Of a DNA stretch of 31,823 bases, positions 1-11,034 are shown piece after piece. Position numbers and translations under genes: made by a program. Each line of letters starts with the position of its first letter. The stretch's first letter is position 1. The notes under the pieces were generated by a model, which was given only the letters and a program-made list of their open reading frames with translations, ran no database searches and was not told the DNA's origin. The stretch spans positions 1 to 31,823 of the IMG/VR virus record IMGVR_UViG_3300005513_000187; one strand, 5' to 3'. Origin of the DNA: a virus.

Positions 1-1262
1 AAGCGCGCGGCGCGCGCCAGCCGCGCGGCGGCATCGTGACCGCCGGCCGCCGCTTCCGCGCGCAGCACGTTCCAGCCGATGTCGTCGTGGCAGCGCACGT
101 AGCTGAGCCAGGTGGCGGCCGGCGGCAGCGCCGGCGTATTGCGGATGACTTCACGCAGCACGCCGGCGTCCTGTTCCGACAACGCCAGCCAGCCGGCCGC
201 CATCAGGCTGCTGTGGTAGGCGATGTGGCATTCGCGCGCCTGCTCGCTGCCCAGGTAGGCCGGCAGCTCGCGCGTCGGCACGATGGCCTCGGCCTTCAGC
301 AGCACGCCCGGCGCCACGAGGTCGACGATGGCGCGCAGCGCCTGCAGGATCTGGTGCGCTTCCGGCTGGTTCATGCAGTTCGTGCCCTCGCGCTTCCACA
401 GGAAGGCGGTGGAATCGAGGCGGAACACTTCGATGCCGCGGTTGGCCAGCCGCAGCAGGGTGGCGGCCATGGCGGCAAACACGGCCGGATTGGCGTAATT
501 GAGGTCCCACTGGTAGGGATAGAAGGTGCTCCACACCCAGCCGCCCATCGCCTCCACGTGGGTGAAATTACCCGGCGCGACCTGCGGGAAGACCTGGCCC
601 AGCGTGCGTTCATAGCGGTCCGGCATCTCGCGGTCGGGATAGACCAGGAACATGGCGCGCGCCTGCGCATCGCCGGCCTGGGCGGCCCGCGCCCAGGCAT
701 GGTCGTCGGCCACGTGGTTGAGGATGAAGTCCGAGCACAGGCTGATGCCGGCCGCGCGCAACTGCGCGGTCAGCGCTTCCAGGTCGGCATTGCTGCCCAG
801 CGCGGGCTCCACCTCGTCGAAATCGGAGACGGCGAAGCCGCCGTCATTCTCGCCCTGGCGCGCGCGCAGGAAGGGCAGCAGGTGCAGATAGCTGACGCCC
901 AGTTCCTGCAGATAGGGGATGCGCGCGGCCACGCCCTGGAGCTCGCCGCCGAAGTTTTGCACGTAGGCGCAATAGCCCAGCATGCGCTGGCTGAGGAACC
1001 AGTCCGGCTGCGCCGCGCGCTGTTCGTCCAGCGCGCGCAGGGCGGCGGGCCGGGCCGCGTGCAGCGCGCCCAGCATGGCCATCAATTCATCCAGCCAGGC
1101 CGCGAAGCCGGGCTGGTCGCCGTACAGGCCGGCCAGCAGTGTGCGCAGCACGCCCTCGTGCCTGGCGCACCTGCGTTGCATTTCGGCCTGCAGCGCTGCC
1201 GGCAAGGCAGCGCTCAGTGACGACGGACGAGGAGTTAAAGAAGAAGCGGACATCTGGGTCAT
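1..1262 (-). CDS. Amylosucrase / sucrose hydrolase (GH13), N-terminal 420 residues, truncated by window edge
   Basis: The enzyme acts on sucrose, either transferring glucose to a growing alpha-1,4-glucan (amylosucrase) or hydrolysing it (SuxB-type sucrose hydrolase); the two subfamilies cannot be separated from this part. Visible GH13 motifs are the nucleophile region RLDSTAFLWK (Asp283), the acid/base region LLKAEAIV (Glu325) and YVRCHDDIGW (His392, Asp393), preceded by an all-helical N-terminal domain (about 1-95). No signal peptide is visible, so a cytoplasmic location is likely. Full-length family members have about 640 residues, so roughly one third lies beyond position 1. ATG at 1262 and in-frame ATG at 1253 are both possible; neither has a clear ribosome binding site. 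The gene follows the GH3 remnant by 37 bp and probably belongs to the same transcript as the TonB-dependent receptor. Confidence 0.93.
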   Translation of the reverse strand, partial: MTQMSASSLTPRPSSLSAALPAALQAEMQRRCARHEGVLRTLLAGLYGDQPGFAAWLDELMAMLGALHAARPAALRALDEQRAAQPDWFLSQRMLGYCAYVQNFGGELQGVAARIPYLQELGVSYLHLLPFLRARQGENDGGFAVSDFDEVEPALGSNADLEALTAQLRAAGISLCSDFILNHVADDHAWARAAQAGDAQARAMFLVYPDREMPDRYERTLGQVFPQVAPGNFTHVEAMGGWVWSTFYPYQWDLNYANPAVFAAMAATLLRLANRGIEVFRLDSTAFLWKREGTNCMNQPEAHQILQALRAIVDLVAPGVLLKAEAIVPTRELPAYLGSEQARECHIAYHSSLMAAGWLALSEQDAGVLREVIRNTPALPPAATWLSYVRCHDDIGWNVLRAEAAAGGHDAAARLARAAR

Positions 1263-1299
1263 CGGTCTGGAAAAATCAAAATGGATACATTTAATAAAA

Positions 1300-1745
1300 C
1301 TAAGGGGCATAGGAAAAAACGGACCGCAGTCGAATGTCGGCAGAAGAGGCGCCAACCATCAAGTCAAACTCGCCCGGCTCGGCATGCCATTGAACCACCA
1401 GGTGTACAGGATTGCTGGCGCATGGTCGGCTACCCAAGCGAATACCAGCGGCCTGCCGGCGTTACTCATCACCACGACCGGCTTCCCGGTCGCGACGATC
1501 GCCTTGATCAATTCCTCCTGCACGCCGGGCAGGCCGAGCGCGCTACGGCTCTTGGCCTCGCCGCTCATGTCCCAGCGCTCGCCGACACCCGGCACCACCA
1601 CGTCCGCCTTATCCAGCGTCATCTCCTTCAGCAAGCTGTCCACGCGGTGCTCGATGTCGGCGCGGCTGTCCGCCCAGGCAGAACTGATCGTCACCAGCAA
1701 AGCGAACGCGCAGCCGAGGACTTTGGCATGATTAACGCAGGTCAT
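1300..1745 (-). pseudogene. Decayed GH3 beta-glucosidase remnant (signal peptide plus C-terminal pieces)
   Basis: The ATG at 1745 has an AGGTGAG ribosome binding site and starts an intact signal peptide (about 25 residues, ending SSAWA). The next residues look like a GH3 mature start (DIEHRVDSLLKEMTLDKA), but the reading frame then jumps straight into the second GH3 domain (DVVVPGVGERWDMSGEAKSR, then TGKPVVVMSNAGRPL), so the whole TIM-barrel domain is missing. The frame stops at 1359. From about 1390 the next frame over encodes the typical GH3 C-terminus (HAEPGEFDLMVGASSADIRL), ending at the TAG at 1300-1302. A normal enzyme has over 700 residues. At least two deletions, one frame-shifting, are needed. 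An exported fragment of about 120 residues could still be made but would lack catalytic residues. Confidence 0.85.
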
Positions 1746-1816
1746 GGACTCACCTATGTGATGATCGCTGACGCTCGCCGCAACGGTACACGCTGGCGGC
1801 AAGCGCTCGTCTCCGA

Positions 1817-4174
1817 TCAGAAGGAATATTTCAGCGACAGCTTGGCAGTGCGTCCGTTCAGGGCGCGGGCACTGGTGGTGCCGTCCAGCTCGGTGTACGC
1901 CAGTTTGTTGAACAGGTTATAGACGCCCAGCGACACCACGGTGGTCGGCGCCAACTTGTAATCGACGTGGCCGGTCACAATGGTGTAGGCCGGCAGACGA
2001 TTGTTGGGCGCGGTGTTGTCCGTTTCGGTCGCGCTGCTCACACCTTGTACGTTCACGCCGATATCGAAGGCATCGCCCGCGTATCCGCCGCCGAGCAGGT
2101 AAATCCATTTCGGCTGCCGATTTTCCGGCTGGCCGACCTGCGCCGGATTGGTCGAGGCCAGCACTTTGGCGTCGGTGTAGGTCAAGCCCAGATTGAAGTG
2201 ATAGTCGCCGATCCGATACCCCGATTCCAGCTCGACGCCCTTGCCTTCGTACTTGTTCGTGGAAAGCACCTGGAAGTTGTTGGTGTAGTTGAACTCGGAG
2301 GTCTTGGCATCGAACAGCGTGACGAACGTGCTGAGGGCGCCAAAGCGCGCCTTGACGCCGCCTTCGAGCTGATCCACCGTGTTGATCGGAATCGATGCGC
2401 TTCCGCTCAGCGGGCCATTGGCCATGATCCGGTCCGCGTTAAACGACGCCCCCTGGCTGTAGCGGGCAAACACCGAGACGTCTCTGTTGATCAGGTAGTT
2501 GGTGCCGATCGAGTATTCCGGGTGGCTGACCCGGTAGTCGACAGGGACGGCATTCGCAGCCGCGTAGGTCGGCATGGTGGTGGCCGGCGCGCCCGCGGCC
2601 ACGGTGGCGATGTTGTAGTAGCCCGACGCCTTTTGATTGTCCTCGCGGAAGCCCGCGTCCACGGTGAGCGGGCCGTTGCGGTAGTTGGCAAAGACGTACG
2701 GCGCGGTCGTCTGGTAGGAAGCGGCGTAGTCACGCTCGCAGCACGCGCCCCACGCCGGTCCCTGGAAGCCGTAGGCCGTCGTCCCGGCAATGGCGCTGTT
2801 GATCGGTGCCGGCGAGGAACTGGCGGAAGTCAGATAGGCATTGAAGTTCCAAACCAGGTCCACTTTCTGCGTATTGGTGAACAGGCCGGCGCCATACGTC
2901 AGCTCGCCGCCGCCGATGTTGTTGAGGCTGCGCGTCAGCTTCAGATCGTTGGTGGTCGAACCCAGATCCTTGACGTCGACGTCGAAAATGACGTTGGTAA
3001 ATGCCGGGCCGCTATATGCCTTGCCCTGGTTGACGCCATTGGCGTAGGTGGCGTCCGCCGGTGCCGCCGCGACGCTGCTGCCGGGGAAGAAGCCGGCCCA
3101 TTGGCCGGAGTTCTGCGCGGCGCGGAATTTGTCGTCGAGCACCCAGCCGCTGCCAATGTTGAGGTGGGTTTCCAGGCCCACGGCCGCGCTGCGCGCCTCC
3201 GTGCCCTTGTTGAGATGAATGGTCGACAGGGTGTTATTGTTGGTCAGCACCGTGTCTATCGGCATATTGGCCGAGTAGCCAGTGTAATGGCGTGGATCGA
3301 TCCCGGCGATAGTGTTGATATTGCCGTTCGAGATATCGACCGGCACCGGCATGTACATGGGCTGCTGGTCAGAGAGGTATTTGAAGTTCAACCGCACATA
3401 ACCCTGGTCAAACTCATGCGTTATATTGCCGCGGATCTGGCCGCCCTGGAGGCTGGCAGCGCTGTCTTTACGCGGGCCGACGCCACTGTCGTAATAGCCG
3501 CCGATGAAATAGCGGGTCTTGTCCGAAAGATGGCCGCCATAATTGAAGTCGAAGCGCTGTTCTCGGTAGCCAAGCCCGGTCGTGACGCCCACGCTGCCGC
3601 CGGTCTCTTCGCCGGTTTTGGTGATCAAGTTGATGATGCCGCCAGGACCATTGGTGGTCAGCGTGGACCCCGTGCCGCCGCGTACCACCTCGACGTGATC
3701 GACGGTAGTATCGATACGCATGAAGTCATCCGGGTTGCCAAATGCGATGTCACCAAACAGCAGAACTGGCAAGCCATCTTCCTGGAACTGGACATAGCGT
3801 GAACCCCCGGCGGAAATCGGCAGGCCGCGCACCGAAACGTTGGCATTGCCGCCGCCACCGCTCGATTGCACGAAAATCCCGGGAATGGTGCTGAGCAAAT
3901 CCGACGCGTTTTGCGGCTGGTTCGCCAGCAACTGGTCGCCGTCCAAAGAACTCACTGAAATGCTGGAGCGCATCTTGGTGGTCTTGCTGGAGGTGCCGGT
4001 GACGACCACCGTTTCCAGATTCAATCCCTTGTTATTTGCATCCACTGCAGCCGCGCCGTCGGCCGCCGGCGCCTCCTGCGCATAGCCATAGGCCGCCTGC
4101 AGCAGCGCACCTACCAGTACCGCCAATGGCTTTTTAGCCAACTTCACTTCCCACATCTTCTTCGCGTGGTTCAT
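1817..4174 (-). CDS. TonB-dependent outer membrane receptor, probably for sucrose or a related glycoside
   Basis: This is a 785-residue outer-membrane transporter. It has a signal peptide (about residues 1-32, cleavage near AYGYA), a TonB box (ETVVVTG, residues 54-60), a plug domain (about 70-210, with the typical VRGLPISAGG and VEVVRGGTGSTL stretches) and a 22-strand-type barrel ending in the aromatic-terminated strand KLSLKYSF. ATG 4174 is preferred over an upstream in-frame TTG (4189) because GAGGGG sits 7 nt before it. Placement between a LacI-type regulator and an amylosucrase argues for import of sucrose or sucrose-like sugars (SuxA-like role); the substrate is inferred from neighbours, not from the sequence. 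It lies 340 bp downstream of lacI and 71 bp upstream of the GH3 remnant. Confidence 0.92.
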   Translation of the reverse strand: MNHAKKMWEVKLAKKPLAVLVGALLQAAYGYAQEAPAADGAAAVDANNKGLNLETVVVTGTSSKTTKMRSSISVSSLDGDQLLANQPQNASDLLSTIPGIFVQSSGGGGNANVSVRGLPISAGGSRYVQFQEDGLPVLLFGDIAFGNPDDFMRIDTTVDHVEVVRGGTGSTLTTNGPGGIINLITKTGEETGGSVGVTTGLGYREQRFDFNYGGHLSDKTRYFIGGYYDSGVGPRKDSAASLQGGQIRGNITHEFDQGYVRLNFKYLSDQQPMYMPVPVDISNGNINTIAGIDPRHYTGYSANMPIDTVLTNNNTLSTIHLNKGTEARSAAVGLETHLNIGSGWVLDDKFRAAQNSGQWAGFFPGSSVAAAPADATYANGVNQGKAYSGPAFTNVIFDVDVKDLGSTTNDLKLTRSLNNIGGGELTYGAGLFTNTQKVDLVWNFNAYLTSASSSPAPINSAIAGTTAYGFQGPAWGACCERDYAASYQTTAPYVFANYRNGPLTVDAGFREDNQKASGYYNIATVAAGAPATTMPTYAAANAVPVDYRVSHPEYSIGTNYLINRDVSVFARYSQGASFNADRIMANGPLSGSASIPINTVDQLEGGVKARFGALSTFVTLFDAKTSEFNYTNNFQVLSTNKYEGKGVELESGYRIGDYHFNLGLTYTDAKVLASTNPAQVGQPENRQPKWIYLLGGGYAGDAFDIGVNVQGVSSATETDNTAPNNRLPAYTIVTGHVDYKLAPTTVVSLGVYNLFNKLAYTELDGTTSARALNGRTAKLSLKYSF

Positions 4175-4211
4175 TGCATGTCCCCTCAAATTGACTCCGT
4201 TTTAATCACAG

Positions 4212-4225
4212 CGTTGCGTGCAACG
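4212..4225. promoter_or_regulatory. Second operator-like inverted repeat upstream of the receptor gene
   Basis: The sequence CGTTGCGTGCAACG has 6-bp arms (CGTTGC/GCAACG) around a 2-bp centre. It ends 38 bp before the receptor start codon and shares the GCAA/TTGC half-site core with the palindrome at 4340-4353. It would lie in the leader, downstream of the proposed promoter, so it could help DNA looping or act as a roadblock. Binding is inferred only. Confidence 0.45.
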
Positions 4226-4315
4226 ATATGTGCCCTTTGAAGGGCGATGCCGTCCTGGCTGGAAGCTGATGCATGACAACTGCAGTGTTGCCATCTGTAG
4301 CTTGCAACTGAGTTC

Positions 4316-4344
4316 ATGCTACCACCGCAGCCGCCGTTTTGCAA
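4316..4344 (-). promoter_or_regulatory. Candidate sigma-70 promoter for the receptor operon
   Basis: On the minus strand TTGCAA (4344-4339) and TAGCAT (4321-4316) are separated by exactly 17 bp, each matching the consensus at four of six positions. The -35 element overlaps the left part of the operator palindrome at 4340-4353, which fits repression by blocking RNA polymerase. Transcription would start near 4308 and give a leader of about 135 nt. Confidence 0.4.
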
Positions 4345-4353
4345 TCGATTGCA
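4340..4353. promoter_or_regulatory. LacI-family operator palindrome
   Basis: TGCAATCGATTGCA is a perfect 14-bp palindrome with a central CG, the classic architecture of LacI/GalR-family operators. It lies between the LacI-type gene and the receptor gene and overlaps the candidate -35 element. The regulator encoded at 4517-5572 is the obvious ligand; this is inference from position and symmetry. Confidence 0.7.
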
Positions 4354-4516
4354 TATAATTTTTAGCAACTGTCGCATTAGCGTTAATGCCGTAGAAGTCG
4401 CGTATTTATTGGGTTTGTAGAAAACCCCTGTGTTGGCTCGGTGACAAATGGATGAAATTCATGCATTCGATTCCATAACACCCCAAACCGCTGCCGCGTG
4501 ACCGAGCAGGGGCAAT

Positions 4517-5572
4517 TCAGCAGGTGCTGGCGCGAACGACGAGTTCTGTTGCCAATTGTTGCGAGGCGACGGATTCGCCATCGATCAGGGCCAGCAAGGA
4601 GGCCACCAATGCCCGCCCCGCTTCGCGTATCGGCTGGCGGACCGTGGTCAACGGAGGATGGGAATAGCTGGAAAGTTCAATGTCGTCATACCCGACCACG
4701 GCCACGCGCCCCGGGACGTCCATGCCGAGCTGACGGAAGGTATTGATTGCAGTCATAGCCATCAGGTCGCTGCCGGCAAATACCGCATCGAACGCGACAT
4801 TGCGGCGCATCAGTTCGTGGACTGCCAGTTCGCCGCCGTTGGGAACGAAGGAGGCGGGAATCAGCAGGGCCGGATCGGGCGCGATCCCCGCCTTCGCCAG
4901 CGCCCGACACAGGCCGTCATAACGATGACCGATTTCCGGCAGGTGAATGTCGCCGAAGAAGGCGATATTTTTGCGGCCCTGCTCCAACAGATGGGTGCCG
5001 GCCAATGCTCCCCCGGTCACATTGTCGCCGCCTACCGTGCAGTAAAGCTGACGGGGCAACTGCGCGCCCCACACCACGATAGGAACCTGACGGGCCGCCA
5101 ACTGATTCAACTGGTCGTGGTGGCGCCATTGGCCGATCAGCACAATGCCGATCACGCGGCCAGTATCAAAAGGCGTCGCTGCGGCATCGAGTTCGTTCGC
5201 ATCCACACGAGAGACCAACATATCAAAGCCCTGGTCCGTCAGCGCGTCCGCCAAGCTACCAAGCATGGACAGAAAAAAGGGATCCGACATGTGTTGACGC
5301 TTCGTCGAATCGTAGGGAATCACCACGCCGATGGTACGGTTTTGTTTGAGCCGTAAATTTTGCGCGCCGATATTGATGGAATACTTTAATGACCGCGCCA
5401 ACTCCATCACACGCGTGCGCGTCTCTTCACTGATCAGCTTGCTGCCGGCCAGTGCACGCGAGACAGTGGATGTGGAGACCCCGGCCAAGCGGGCAATGTC
5501 GGCCATCTGCACACGCTGCTGCTGGGCAGCGCCACCACTCTCAGGCTTAGCGGGAGACGAAATTTTCGGCAT
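4517..5572 (-). CDS. LacI/GalR-family transcriptional regulator of the sugar locus
   Basis: The 351-residue protein has an N-terminal LacI-type helix-turn-helix (about residues 22-45, ADIARLAGVSTSTVSRAL) and hinge helix, followed by a periplasmic-binding-protein-like sensor domain (from IGVVIPYD near 80 to the end) with the family-typical FAGSDLMAM and VVGYDDIELSSY stretches. It is expected to repress the downstream receptor-amylosucrase operon until a sugar ligand binds. SuxR of Xanthomonas occupies the same position in an equivalent locus, but orthology is inferred. The first 20 residues before the HTH are a longer lead than usual. No strong ribosome binding site precedes ATG 5572. A palindrome between its promoter and start suggests autoregulation. 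Confidence 0.93.
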   Translation of the reverse strand: MPKISSPAKPESGGAAQQQRVQMADIARLAGVSTSTVSRALAGSKLISEETRTRVMELARSLKYSINIGAQNLRLKQNRTIGVVIPYDSTKRQHMSDPFFLSMLGSLADALTDQGFDMLVSRVDANELDAAATPFDTGRVIGIVLIGQWRHHDQLNQLAARQVPIVVWGAQLPRQLYCTVGGDNVTGGALAGTHLLEQGRKNIAFFGDIHLPEIGHRYDGLCRALAKAGIAPDPALLIPASFVPNGGELAVHELMRRNVAFDAVFAGSDLMAMTAINTFRQLGMDVPGRVAVVGYDDIELSSYSHPPLTTVRQPIREAGRALVASLLALIDGESVASQQLATELVVRASTC

Positions 5573-5603
5573 GGGTCAAAAAGGAGCGGAATCTTGAAGC
5601 ACA

Positions 5604-5615: not shown

Positions 5616-5659
5616 AACTGGGATGCGAAGCGCCGCGCTGCCGAAAGGCCAACAAGTTT

Positions 5660-5668
5660 AGTATAGCA
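5660..5668 (-). promoter_or_regulatory. Extended -10 promoter element for the LacI-type gene
   Basis: The minus strand reads TGCTATACT, an extended -10 (TGnTATAcT). There is no convincing -35 hexamer 17 bp upstream, as is common for extended -10 promoters. The start of transcription would be near 5653, about 80 nt before the start codon. Confidence 0.45.
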
Positions 5669-5744
5669 TTGCGGGCACTGCCACCTCGTAGCTTCAACGC
5701 ACAGCGACAATGTCGTGCGCACACCGTGCACGGAGAGGAAAATG

Positions 5745-5768
5745 AAAAAGCCGGACAAGTCCGGCTTT
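5745..5768 (-). terminator. Rho-independent terminator of the tRNA-Pro gene
   Basis: A perfect 10-bp stem AAAGCCGGAC/GTCCGGCTTT is closed by 2 nt and followed on the minus strand by a T run. It lies 14 nt past the CCA end of the tRNA remnant, so it was the tRNA terminator before integration. It now separates the prophage from the host regulator gene. Confidence 0.8.
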
Positions 5769-5782
5769 CTCTTTCATTCGAT

Positions 5783-5830
5783 TGGTCGGGACGGTGTGAT
5801 TCGAACACACGACCCCTTGCACCCCATGCA
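5783..5830 (-). tRNA. 3' 48 nt of tRNA-Pro(GGG): prophage attachment core
   Basis: Read on the minus strand this is the anticodon loop ATGGGGT with anticodon GGG and the 3' stem strand GCAAG, then the variable region, the T arm GTGTG-TTCGAAT-CACAC and the acceptor strand CGTCCCGACCA. Of the 5' anticodon stem strand (CTTGC) only the loop-proximal TGC is left; beyond position 5830 the sequence no longer resembles tRNA, and the D arm and 5' acceptor strand are absent. This is the remnant left when a temperate phage inserts at a tRNA 3' half. The complete gene should be rebuilt at the other prophage end, out of view. Confidence 0.85.
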
Positions 5831-6035
5831 GTGTTGCATTTAATCAAAACACAGTGTACATGCGCATTTAGGACTTGGCTGTCTAATATACAGTAGTTTA
5901 TAAATCGATGGCTATGCCCGTATATTTATCGTTTTTTTGTAGAAATTAGACAGATTTTAGGCCGTCCTCACGCCCTCGCTACCCAAGTTTGCAGATGGGC
6001 TCGATCATCATTCAGACTGCCAGCATACGAACTGC
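5831..6035. other. AT-rich non-coding prophage end flanking the attachment core
   Basis: No convincing gene is seen in these 205 bp. The stretch contains an inverted repeat CTGTCTAAT (5879-5887) / ATTAGACAG (5945-5953) and several A/T runs, including a 7-T run near 5932. This composition is typical of attP arms, where integrase and host factor bind; actual sites cannot be assigned. Confidence 0.5.
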
Positions 6036-6863
6036 TTAGCCAAACTGAAGCGCGGCGCCATCACCGATATTGTCCAGCGCGGACAGCGCGCCCGCATAGC
6101 CATTATCGAAAAGTTGCTGGCGCACTGAACTAGGCATATTTCGATCCAAGCCTGAAGCGAAGCCGGTTTCGATGAAAGCGAAGTGTGCGCCCTGCTCCTT
6201 GCCGAGGTCCACATGCGTATTCTCGTTCGCAGATAGCATCAGGTCAACGAGCCGTGGAGCGATATCGAAGGCCGTATGCACGCCAGCATTGAGCGGAGAG
6301 GCTTTGGACACCAACTGAATGCCCAAGCGCGGCACATCATCGATCGTCAGCTTGTCGATCGGGATATTGTTGCAGCAGCCGCCGTCCATCAGCAATGCGC
6401 TGCCGTATTGGATCGGCGCATAGACGAACGGGATTGCCGCACTGGCGCGCGCTGCCAACGCAACAGGTGCATCCGGTGTCGCGCTGCGGCTGAACTCAAA
6501 CGGAACTTCCGCCCCAACGTCAGAGGCCATCACGACCAGGTCGACCGGCATCTGACTGAACAACAGGCCGCCGGTCTTTTCTGTGATCCAGTTCAGCAGC
6601 GTATTGCCATTGCAGTAGCCCATCCTTGTCATTGCGGACCAAGGCGAAAACGTCAGCATGTCAGACCAGTCGCGGGACATGGTCAATGCCTTCATGTCGG
6701 CCAACGACATTCCGGCAGCGGCCAGCGTCGCGACAATGGAGCCGCCGCTGGTGCCGGCGAGCTGCACTGGCGTATAGCCAGCATCCCGGATCGCGCACAG
6801 CGCGCCGACGTGCGCGCTGAACTTGAAGCCCGAACCGGAGAGAGCGACACGAATCGGCTTCAT
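6036..6863 (-). CDS. Patatin-like phospholipase, prophage-end accessory gene
   Basis: The 275-residue protein has the patatin Ser/Asp dyad: nucleophile elbow GTSGGS (Ser39) and DGG (Asp160, in LLMDGGCCNN). The oxyanion segment near the N-terminus reads LSGSGFKFSAHVG instead of the usual GGGxxG, but keeps the glycines and basic residue. No signal peptide or membrane segment is visible, so a cytoplasmic lipid acyl hydrolase is expected. It overlaps the upstream 93-aa gene by 4 nt (ATGA) and is the last gene before the attachment site, a typical place for lysogenic-conversion genes. It may help membrane destruction at lysis, alter host lipids, or exclude other phages; the sequence does not decide. 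Confidence 0.88.
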   Translation of the reverse strand: MKPIRVALSGSGFKFSAHVGALCAIRDAGYTPVQLAGTSGGSIVATLAAAGMSLADMKALTMSRDWSDMLTFSPWSAMTRMGYCNGNTLLNWITEKTGGLLFSQMPVDLVVMASDVGAEVPFEFSRSATPDAPVALAARASAAIPFVYAPIQYGSALLMDGGCCNNIPIDKLTIDDVPRLGIQLVSKASPLNAGVHTAFDIAPRLVDLMLSANENTHVDLGKEQGAHFAFIETGFASGLDRNMPSSVRQQLFDNGYAGALSALDNIGDGAALQFG

Positions 6864-8236: not shown

Positions 8237-8722
8237 CTACTTGAAATCTGCATTGGTAAAGTGGTGCGGCTTTTTGTCGGAATGCGCATCTATAAGCGAA
8301 CCAGCTACCGCATTGAGAGGATCCAGGTTGACCTCGCCGGCCGGCGGTCTGTCGTCAACCCAGTTCTCCTGCAGCATGGAGTCGCGCAGGACCATCAGCC
8401 CTGCGATGGCCTTATCGATGTGATGCATCCCAGATTCTGGATCAATGTCCTGCCCTTCCCACCATGAAAACAAATGGCGCCCAACCGCGGCATCGAAATA
8501 AACCGATGCACGCACACCGACGGCCCGGTAGTTGTGACGACCATACTTGAGGGCGCCCTCCAGCATGGCGAGTCCGATCCGCCATAACACGCGAACCGGC
8601 AGACAGGATATGGGCGTCTTTCGCGTCCCGATCATGTCCTTAGGATTGGTTTGCTTCAATACTCCAAACGTGAGCGACTCGTGCTCATCGGCGAGAGGAT
8701 CTACTTTCGTTGTGTCAGCCAT
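8237..8722 (-). CDS. MazZ-like dATP/dGTP pyrophosphohydrolase (DUF5664 family)
   Basis: The 161-residue all-helical protein shows the hallmarks of the phage dATP/dGTP diphosphohydrolase N-terminal family: NPKDMIG (about 26-32), KYGRHNYR (about 59-66) and a helix pair HLFSWWEGQDID / HHIDKAIAGLMVLRD carrying acidic and histidine residues for metal binding. Members related to MazG split dNTPs to dNMP and pyrophosphate; in cyanophage S-2L the MazZ relative supplies dGMP for 2-aminoadenine synthesis. No PurZ or DatZ partner is in this window, so that pathway is not implied. ATG 8722 is preferred over 8749 because of a GAGGT site 8 nt upstream. Its start lies 19 nt inside the preceding membrane gene. 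Confidence 0.75.
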   Translation of the reverse strand: MADTTKVDPLADEHESLTFGVLKQTNPKDMIGTRKTPISCLPVRVLWRIGLAMLEGALKYGRHNYRAVGVRASVYFDAAVGRHLFSWWEGQDIDPESGMHHIDKAIAGLMVLRDSMLQENWVDDRPPAGEVNLDPLNAVAGSLIDAHSDKKPHHFTNADFK

Positions 8723-8952
8723 TGGTGCAACCTCATAGACGCCATGCACCCAAGACCAGCACCAAGGCCCATGGCAACGACAATAAGACCGTAGCCCTTA
8801 GCGGCGGTCGAGATCAGAAAAACTTCACATCCAGCCATGCACATTGACGTTGGCAGTACCCATAAATACTGTTTGCCGGAGACGTTCAAAGTCTGAAATG
8901 CCTTAAGGCCGACAAAACAAAAAGACGTGAGAAATGCGATGAGCAAATTCAT
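8701..8952 (-). CDS. Small phage membrane protein (83 aa), function unknown
   Basis: Three hydrophobic segments (about residues 2-18, 28-48 and 53-70) make this an integral membrane protein with a basic C-terminal tail. Its start overlaps the endonuclease stop by 4 nt (ATGA) and its end overlaps the MazZ-like start. It might be a holin-like protein, but its location among nucleotide and DNA enzymes rather than beside the lysin leaves the role open. Confidence 0.65.
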   Translation of the reverse strand: MNLLIAFLTSFCFVGLKAFQTLNVSGKQYLWVLPTSMCMAGCEVFLISTAAKGYGLIVVAMGLGAGLGCMASMRLHQWLTQRK

Positions 8953-9446
8953 GTGGCTTCGCCTTTATAACGTCGCAGATACGCAATCATGCTCTCTAGT
9001 ACAGACGGGTCCTCGCCAACGACGCCAATGGTCAGGTTGCACCTTGAGCAAAGCATTCCGCGGACTTTCCCGCTTTTGTGACAGTGATCTACGTTCAATG
9101 CATTGGATGATGTCCCAGCCATATTTGGCGGGTTGTCGCAGATCTCGCAAACACCGCCGGATCGAGTCTCTAATGAGTCAAGCTCCTTGAGCGTTAGTCC
9201 ATATTTCTTGGCTCGAGCCTTTCTCTGACTCTTCTCCCTGCGCTCTCTGAATTCAGGGCGTTCTTTCATTGCCATAGCTCGCCATTTACGCCCTCGAGCG
9301 TTATGACATGCCTTGCATTCTGATGCTCGGCCGAATTCGAATGCATTATTCTTAGGGAAGTCTTCGGCCGCCTTGCGAATTCCACATTTGCTGCATTCTT
9401 TTGTCATCGTTTCCGGATCCATCGGAAACTTCGGCATAACCCCCAT
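8949..9446 (-). CDS. Recombination endonuclease VII-like HNH/zinc nuclease
   Basis: The 165-residue protein carries an N-terminal zinc ribbon (C18, C21, C44, C47) and a C-terminal endonuclease VII fold: zinc cysteines C100/C103 and C133/C136 and the metal-binding DHCH (Asp120, His121, His123) followed by CNL (Asn137). T4 endonuclease VII resolves branched DNA during packaging; many phage relatives have undetermined targets. The start at 9446 overlaps the metallophosphoesterase stop (TGATG). The frame is open further upstream to 9647, but that stretch lies fully inside the preceding gene and does not look protein-like. ATGs at 9437 and 9407 are alternative starts. Confidence 0.82.
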   Translation of the reverse strand: MGVMPKFPMDPETMTKECSKCGIRKAAEDFPKNNAFEFGRASECKACHNARGRKWRAMAMKERPEFRERREKSQRKARAKKYGLTLKELDSLETRSGGVCEICDNPPNMAGTSSNALNVDHCHKSGKVRGMLCSRCNLTIGVVGEDPSVLESMIAYLRRYKGEAT

Positions 9447-10609
9447 CAGGTCAGCGCCCCCACGTCGACGCGATGACGCTCTATTTCGCCGTGCTCCTTG
9501 TGATGCACGATGCAGATCATGTCGCGGCCAGCTCGATAGCCGTGGCCGTTTGCATAGCTGTCTTTTGCGGCCAGGGTCCGGAACGATTCGCAAATGACGC
9601 CGGGTAGCTCCGTAACGTTCTGCGAGTGAACGTGTCCTGTGTACCAATACCTATGGCTTGTTTCGCCCCAATCCTTCGAGCGATCCGATGCCATGATGCC
9701 GCCCAATTGGGCGTGCTTGACCTTATCGCCATGGGTCGATCCGATCAGCACTTTCCCAAAGCGGTAGTACCAGAATGGCGATGGATGCAAATCGACTTCC
9801 ACGCGCTTCTCTCGATCAAAGAAGGCATCTAGCGTATATGCCAATGCCCAGATCGCCTCGGGATCGTGATTACCTTGCACGCAGCGCACAACAACCTTCT
9901 TATACTTTTGCAGGGCACGCTGAATCGCATGGCGATAAGTTTCGATGCCGACCTTCAGTACCTTGACGTACCGGCTGTCGACGTCAAGCTGATGCTTGGA
10001 CCGAGGTGTACTGTTGGTCTGGTCGTTCATATGGAAGACGTCGCCAAGCAGCAGAATGACGCCAGTATCGGCGCAGGGTGCCGATTGCATCAGGCGATCG
10101 ACAGCGGCAAGCGTCATGTCGCGCGCAATATTCAAATCGAATGCGTCACCACACTCCTGCTGCCATACCTGCAGGCCGATGTGCGGGTCACCGATTGGAA
10201 AGATGGCCAGCAGATCTTTGCAGATGACCGTAGGCGCCTTGGTGATTGGTGCCAGGCCGCGGACGTCCTCGCCCATCGTTTTGATCATTTCGCGCACCAG
10301 TTCCGCTTGGCGCTCCATGTCGGCCGTCGTCTTTACCCATTGAAGGCGCGGCTTTCCATCTTCGTCATACAAGGTCGACGTTCCGCGCAGCATATAGCCG
10401 TCGGGGATAATCTTGCTCATATCATGGTCTGGCGAATAGCCTCGCCGCGCCGCCTTGGCTGCCAATCCCTTCAGTGAATCTTGAATGGTTGCGCGCGCAA
10501 CCTTCAGAGCCCTGGCAGCCGCACTGAGAGTGCCATTCCGCTCTATCGCTTCGATGAACTCAACCTGTCGTGCAGTTGCGAACTCGATCAACTTCGGATC
10601 AATTTTCAT
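9446..10609 (-). CDS. Metallophosphoesterase with N-terminal helix-turn-helix
   Basis: Residues about 12-50 form a helix-turn-helix (NGTLSAAARALKVARATIQD) resembling those of phage terminase small subunits or replication proteins. The rest (about 130-385) is a calcineurin-like phosphoesterase with all five metal-ligand motifs: GDPHIG (Asp141, His143), LLGDVFHMND (Asp190), GNHD (Asn247, His248), STHGD (His293) and GHVH (His326, His328). The substrate is unknown; DNA ends, nucleotides or protein phosphates are possible, and the HTH favours a nucleic acid. Start overlaps the HslV-like stop by 4 nt (ATGA), end overlaps the nuclease start. Confidence 0.87.
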   Translation of the reverse strand: MKIDPKLIEFATARQVEFIEAIERNGTLSAAARALKVARATIQDSLKGLAAKAARRGYSPDHDMSKIIPDGYMLRGTSTLYDEDGKPRLQWVKTTADMERQAELVREMIKTMGEDVRGLAPITKAPTVICKDLLAIFPIGDPHIGLQVWQQECGDAFDLNIARDMTLAAVDRLMQSAPCADTGVILLLGDVFHMNDQTNSTPRSKHQLDVDSRYVKVLKVGIETYRHAIQRALQKYKKVVVRCVQGNHDPEAIWALAYTLDAFFDREKRVEVDLHPSPFWYYRFGKVLIGSTHGDKVKHAQLGGIMASDRSKDWGETSHRYWYTGHVHSQNVTELPGVICESFRTLAAKDSYANGHGYRAGRDMICIVHHKEHGEIERHRVDVGALT

Positions 10610-11034
10610 CGTTTCCCGCCTATGGTCATGGTTTGAACCTCCGCGCCCGTGGCGGAGTCATATTGCGACGCAATCCTGATAGCTTTGTTGGGAGAGGCGC
10701 CCATCGCCATAGCACCGAGCGCGAACGAAGCGCCAGAACCGATGGCGAAGTATCCGTCTTCGATCTGCAATGCGATCATCTCCGAGCCCCACCAGAGCAG
10801 CTCGCCGGCGGCGGTCAGTTCCAGAGCCTCGAAGCAGGCCTCATTGAACGATGGCTTTGCGCCAGGATTCCTGCGCCATTCGATGAACTGCATCGCCTGC
10901 TCGGCGTTGCCGCAAAATCCGATCAGCGATCCGTTTATGCGATGGATCTTAGTGGTCATGAATGCCGCGCCGCCAGAATCCGAGATGCGCTTATCCGCCG
11001 CCATGCTTCGGCGGTTGCAAACGATGGTGGTCAC
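10606..11034 (-). CDS. HslV/proteasome-beta-like Ntn hydrolase encoded by the prophage
   Basis: The GTG at 11034, preceded by GGGAG at 8 nt, starts a 142-residue protein that reads M-TTIVCNRRSMAADKRIS, so Met removal would expose Thr1 exactly as in HslV. Counted from Thr1, an Asp (13) and Lys (28, in TTKIHRI) take the places of HslV Asp17 and Lys33, and the segments GSLIGFCGNAEQ and GYFAIGSGASFALGAM match HslV strands and helices. HslV has about 175 residues; the missing part is mainly in the middle helices. No HslU-type ATPase is visible nearby. It may process a phage protein, use host HslU, or have lost peptidase activity. An upstream in-frame ATG (11127) would bury Thr1 and overlap the LamG gene. 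Confidence 0.78.
   Translation of the reverse strand: MTTIVCNRRSMAADKRISDSGGAAFMTTKIHRINGSLIGFCGNAEQAMQFIEWRRNPGAKPSFNEACFEALELTAAGELLWWGSEMIALQIEDGYFAIGSGASFALGAMAMGASPNKAIRIASQYDSATGAEVQTMTIGGKR

Follow-up and report, generated by a model that had tools for sequence, protein, structure and literature searches.

In the Arthrobacter phage Wayne, the DUF5664 (PF18909) enzyme hydrolyzes dATP, dGTP, and dUTP to the monophosphates, and Acinetobacter phage SH-Ab 15497 carries a DUF5664-DUF550 protein (PMC12884076); both phages have 2-aminoadenine DNA. Mre11/SbcD and PolD-DP1 are nucleases with a calcineurin-like fold, while HslV/ClpQ and BPH are peptidases of the N-terminal nucleophile (Ntn) fold with Thr, Asp, and Lys catalytic residues. 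In the Autographiviridae, the KMV-like phages J8-65 and PP99 have a DNA-processing cassette in which genes for endonuclease VII (EndoVII), a metallophosphoesterase (MPE), and PNK, in J8-65 also PF18909, stand in one run. Here we compare these systems with a block of five genes in the IMG/VR virus record IMGVR_UViG_3300005513_000187, a fragmentary sequence of 31,823 bases that we refer to as the window. The block lies on the minus strand at positions 8237-11034, where genes for an HslV-like peptidase, an MPE, an EndoVII-like nuclease, a small membrane protein (mem), and a PF18909 protein follow each other with end-to-end overlaps.

We give about an even chance to the reading that a temperate phage carries this block in its late operon as an accessory cassette for DNA ends and nucleotide pools, with MPE, mem, and PF18909 at the core and the HslV-like peptidase as an occasional member. 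The PF18909 enzyme would cut dATP and dGTP (and dUTP) to monophosphates, as is known for one member of its family, while mem, judging from gene adjacency, may hold or regulate this enzyme at the inner membrane. The MPE, a putative metal-dependent nuclease or phosphodiesterase with an N-terminal DNA-binding helix-turn-helix (HTH) domain, would process DNA ends or degrade DNA. In the late phase of infection, the three proteins acting together might tune DNA ends and nucleotide pools, and the HslV-like peptidase probably processes proteins separately. The activities, the contacts, and the joint function of the block proteins are all predictions. The association of MPE, mem, and PF18909 appears to be new to the literature, in which we also found no study on the role of the phrog_704 phosphoesterase.

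MPE, mem, and PF18909 and their recurrence

The PF18909 gene (8237-8722) encodes a protein of 161 amino acids (aa) that matches PF18909 (E 2e-23; 82.6 bits against a curated cut-off of 27) and phrog_2252 (E 2e-57). It belongs to the same Pfam family as the DUF5664 proteins of Wayne and SH-Ab 15497, and by analogy it is a candidate dATP/dGTP pyrophosphohydrolase. A reading made earlier from the letters alone (the sequence-only reading) had labeled it MazZ-like, which is a loose term, as MazZ/DUF550 and DUF5664 are treated as separate enzymes (PMC12884076). No purZ or datZ gene of the Z-cluster was seen among the window genes examined, which come from a 31.8-kb fragment and were not searched with models of these genes.

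The MPE gene (9446-10609) encodes 387 aa in which an HTH domain precedes a calcineurin-like metallophosphoesterase domain (phrog_704, E 8e-109). Its metal-site residues (D141, H143, D190, N247, H248, H293, H326, and H328) are invariant in 54 homologs, and its AlphaFold2 (AF2) model, with a predicted local distance difference test (pLDDT) score of 92.9, gave VIA-align Z values of 15.8 with PolD-DP1, 15.3 with Mre11, and 14.4 with LpxH; the MPE profile found nothing useful when run against PDB sequences. Fold and metal-site residues are common to Mre11/SbcD and PolD-DP1, from which the MPE differs in its N-terminal HTH domain. A nuclease role is suggested by the fold, by these residues, and by the neighbors of the gene in lytic phages. 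No MPE neighbor resembled a Rad50/SbcC partner, for which no dedicated model search was made. By tblastn, phrog_704 matched 2,103 of 50,697 phage records, or about 4% of the sequenced records, and the link of this phosphoesterase to PF18909 and the little-annotated mem provides a concrete, testable set of partners.

Between the EndoVII-like and PF18909 genes, mem (8701-8952) encodes 83 aa with three hydrophobic segments and has a weak match to phrog_7045 (3e-5). A family alignment identifies it as a conserved small membrane protein, and it is homologous to a second membrane family, m2 (hhalign probability 95%, E 5e-8). In the m2-seeded loci, an m2 gene is directly followed by a PF18909 gene in 35 of 49, always on the same strand, and an MPE lies within 3 kb in 25 of 49; as 36 of these loci form one 80%-identity cluster, the counts per cluster are two of nine and three of nine, respectively. 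A small open reading frame (ORF) with at least two hydrophobic segments lies immediately 5' of PF18909 at 18 of 89 loci, compared with three of 117 for MPE, one of 28 for EndoVII, and none of 23 for HslV. The order is reversed in RIO-1 and KZY1, where PF18909 is followed by an unannotated mem in an overlapping +1 frame (L185, 5983-6243; L188, 3983-4240); a gene fusion in RIO-1, to which the tblastn feature labels had pointed, was rejected on account of this overlapping frame. On the minus strand of locus L009 (9743-10409), a mem homolog and the ORF upstream of it overlap; the record also matches PF18909 moderately (43.5 bits), and this is possibly another mem-PF18909 pair.

Arrangements of the core genes recur in other phages. 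MPE, mem, and PF18909 are consecutive in L192 and L194, with a gap after MPE in L193, while L002-L005 have HslV-MPE-PF18909 directly before the terminase genes and L155 has PF18909-MPE-HNH-HslV. Both the mem-PF18909 and the MPE-PF18909 pairs are found in either order, and they also occur in lytic phages of other families (Zobellviridae, Autographiviridae, and Schitoviridae); MPE and PF18909 abut in lytic Schitoviridae, and an ATGA overlap joins MPE to a PF18909 gene downstream of it in SBP1, a lytic Vibrio phage. The Autographiviridae cassette reads exonuclease-EndoVII-MPE-?-PNK-PF18909 in J8-65 and exonuclease-EndoVII-MPE-PNK-dNMP kinase-ligase in PP99; it differs from the window in its location in the replication region, in that no mem or HslV was found in it, and in the resolvase type of the J8-65 EndoVII. 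In VAP7, MPE lies beside DNA primase. Elsewhere, the immediate 3' neighbor of MPE is often a nucleotide-type gene; besides mem and PF18909, such neighbors include DUF6378 (four lineages), DUF3310 (two), a dNMP kinase (one), and a weak deoxyribosyltransferase-like match (one). DUF6378 and DUF3310 are genes that we take to be of nucleotide type. One of these four kinds of gene overlaps the MPE stop codon in L008, L017, L030-L032, L041, L063, L078, L206, L209, and L210, a hint that phrog_704 may have a general place in nucleotide metabolism.

Co-occurrence in whole genomes exceeds expectation. Among 248 Pseudomonadaceae genomes, PF18909 is present in four, MPE in five, and both in three (0.08 expected), and all three genomes, one of which was the seed, have a PF18909-MPE pair on the same strand within 1 kb. 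Among 398 Burkholderiaceae genomes, PF18909 is present in 10, a strong MPE match in seven, and both in three (0.18 expected). A single shared origin of the PF18909 genes in such blocks was rejected by their tree, in which the label "in the cluster" changes at least four times (from few columns and with rough support). The PF18909 protein of L091 is the nearest relative of the window protein (77% identity), and that of L016, the nearest relative by MPE, reaches only 39%; together with the label changes, this fits repeated recruitment or replacement at the PF18909 position, as read from these sequences, better than inheritance of one fixed operon.

Gene junctions and the endonuclease VII-like gene

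The sequence-only reading took the five genes for a single translationally coupled unit. The minus strand does contain all five overlapping ORFs, with the junctions it described: ATGA between HslV and MPE (10609-10606), TGATG between MPE and EndoVII (9448-9444), ATGA between EndoVII and mem (8952-8949), and a mem-PF18909 overlap of 22 nt with the stop codon or 19 nt without it (8722-8701). Such overlaps are ordinary in phages. Coupled translation is not established by them, because most junctions in the block carry their own Shine-Dalgarno-like purine run (judged by eye). ATGA or GTGA ends 70 of 115 MPE genes whatever gene comes next, and therefore the ATGA overlaps are no evidence of partnership.

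It was the EndoVII-like gene (8949-9446; 165 residues, with PF02945 matched at E 6e-21 over residues 78-158) that set the proposed unit aside. In L016, the closest relative by MPE (77% identity), the order HslV, MPE, mem, PF18909 is kept, and mem follows MPE directly through an ATGA overlap, with no endonuclease gene in between; a five-gene system is thus unsupported. Across 79 MPE-seeded IMG/VR loci, which group into 47 lineages at 70% identity, and 19 GTDB loci, no EndoVII gene came closer to MPE than 3 kb, and none of the loci retrieved carries all five genes. A fixed five-gene unit was therefore rejected, by the refuting condition that the sequence-only reading itself had set. What survives is the recurrence of MPE, mem, and PF18909 in unrelated phages and in varying order, with HslV more loosely attached; co-occurrence above chance was seen for MPE and PF18909, and members of these gene families also occur in replication cassettes of lytic phages.

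The window EndoVII is probably a homing-type endonuclease of the free-standing kind, which inserted at the 3' junction of MPE and is a passenger outside the module. All five DHHRN motif residues are present (D120, H121, H123, R129, and N137), at 72% of the protein length, and proteins with a C-terminal motif fall mostly in the endonuclease clade of this family, while those with an N-terminal motif are mostly in the resolvase clade (PMC6083498). The layout of the T4 endonuclease VII resolvase, an N-terminal motif followed by the resolvase C-terminal part, was not found in the window protein, whose DHxH stands at residue 120 of 165. F-CphI, a homing endonuclease of cyanophage S-PM2 from the same DHHRN/EndoVII-motif family (PMC6083498), has 33% similarity across 96% of the window protein and likewise has CX2C pairs and a C-terminal motif with D, H, H, R, and N; it differs in that no intron was seen near the window gene, for which site cleavage and homing are predicted. 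In the PDB, the restriction enzyme Hpy99I is the closest match by sequence. As with homing-type genes, presence varies at one site between close relatives, L016 being without it, and the slot 3' of MPE is taken by an HNH/AP2-type endonuclease in L155, by an HNH endonuclease of homing type in L103, and by a GNAT acetyltransferase in L007. The window shows that a homing endonuclease may be mistaken for a member of an operon. A stricter statement, that EndoVII never adjoins MPE, was rejected, as J8-65 and PP99 have an EndoVII gene directly upstream of MPE; in J8-65, its motif comes early, at 29% of the length and thus within the N-terminal third, as in resolvases.

Weighing the readings of the block

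Several observations weigh against the cassette reading. Most MPE loci have none of the HslV, EndoVII, mem, or PF18909 families, so MPE works without these partners, and the raw m2 counts overstate lineage support because the 36-locus cluster dominates them. The Burkholderiaceae pairs, one of them from the seed genome, lie 6-36 kb apart on one contig and are not adjacent. The fold leaves nuclease activity of the MPE unproven, because LpxH is almost as near as Mre11 and PolD, and a late-operon position is odd for feeding nucleotides to replication. A lesser but serious possibility is that the genes are unrelated morons in a permissive late-operon slot, each selected alone, so that adjacency would reflect where insertions are tolerated. 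The gene after MPE varies widely, with an acetyltransferase, HNH genes, lysins, terminase, antiterminator Q, and many unknowns among those seen; in most records, any one of HslV, MPE, and PF18909 is found without the other two, and insertion points beside lysis, att, and terminase genes are classic accessory sites. Against independent insertion stand the recurrence of mem-PF18909 and MPE-PF18909 in both orders and in lytic phages of other families, and the excess of shared genomes. A bolder version of the cassette reading, which we consider rather unlikely, is that an undescribed membrane-associated complex of MPE, mem or m2, and PF18909 would link the cutting of DNA ends to the local breakdown of purine deoxynucleoside triphosphates (dNTPs), during replication in lytic phages and late or in lysogeny in temperate ones.

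The remaining readings have less in their favor. The sequence-only reading had suggested a joint role in DNA or nucleotide handling or in countering host defense; the former fits the identities of the partners, while the latter found no support with PADLOC, which gave only a generic REase_II match to the EndoVII domain. It is improbable that the block is a prophage exclusion or defense module in which dNTP depletion, a nuclease, a protease, and a membrane sensor kill or block superinfected cells, and PADLOC gave it no further match. The component types do resemble known depletion and nuclease defenses, and several relatives have a prophage-edge position near lysis genes or att, but these gene families are also found in replication cassettes of lytic phages. 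A holin role for mem, with the block as part of lysis, is very improbable: the weak phrog_7045 match of mem is to a "holin", the homolog in LUZ24-like phages is annotated as a putative holin, and lysis genes come after the block in the window, but the family is not consistently placed with lysis genes, as the homolog in PaP4 lies between DNA polymerase genes and those in Sphaerotilus phage R1 and phage H101 are beside or near DNA ligase. Moreover, L016 has a transmembrane endolysin-like protein and Rz/Rz1-like genes upstream of its block. A single unit of five proteins with EndoVII as an integral part is barely credible; the genes overlap and EndoVII also precedes MPE in J8-65 and PP99, yet EndoVII is absent from L016 and from every other temperate HslV-MPE or MPE-PF18909 locus retrieved, and the resolvase-type motif position of J8-65 differs from the homing-type position in the window. 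The earlier claim of an undescribed system falls for the five genes together; it is the smaller MPE-mem-PF18909 association that appears to be undescribed.

A DUF5664 protein is labeled "endolysin; inhibits RNA polymerase" and a mem homolog is labeled "holin" (phrog_2252; PaP4 gp41 and gp36, L265). Both of these common annotations look like propagated mislabels.

The HslV-like gene and the surroundings of the block

The HslV-like gene (10606-11034) has a GTG start and encodes a predicted Ntn-hydrolase of 142 aa (phrog_1040, E 6e-29; PF00227 weakly, E 0.003), which is shorter than HslV/ClpQ (about 175 aa). The N-terminus reads MTT in 16 aligned homologs, save one MST, and the predicted catalytic residues, Thr2 (Thr1 after Met removal), Asp14, and Lys29, which HslV/ClpQ and BPH have in common with the window protein, are kept in the 16 homologs, with one Ser in place of Thr2. 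Its AF2 model (pLDDT 93) has HslV and BPH as top Foldseek matches. No HslU-type ATPase was noticed beside it or among the other window genes examined, to which no HslU model was applied; the HslU of the host could take this role. HslV lies no more than 300 nt upstream of MPE in eight of the 79 loci and four of the 47 lineages, always on the same strand, and it is downstream of MPE in L086, L155, and L207. None of the papers searched joins HslV, phage, and metallophosphoesterase. One 48-kb virus record (G045, locus L071) has two HslV-like genes, one directly before MPE and the other about 32 kb away.

Starting at about 31.8 kb and descending to 6 kb, the minus strand has the gene content of the late operon of a temperate phage, in the order terminase fragment, portal, protease, capsid, tail, tail fiber, the five-gene block, lysis genes, and patatin. 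Bases 1-5,600 resemble host DNA, with a TonB receptor and a LacI regulator, and the interval 5640-6060, between these host genes and the patatin gene, is likely the prophage edge. Within it, about 5785-5830 resembles by eye the 3' half of a tRNA gene beside a hairpin terminator, where ARAGORN calls no tRNA. The gene at this edge encodes a patatin-like phospholipase (6036-6863; PF01734, E 1e-26) and is a possible lysogenic-conversion gene.

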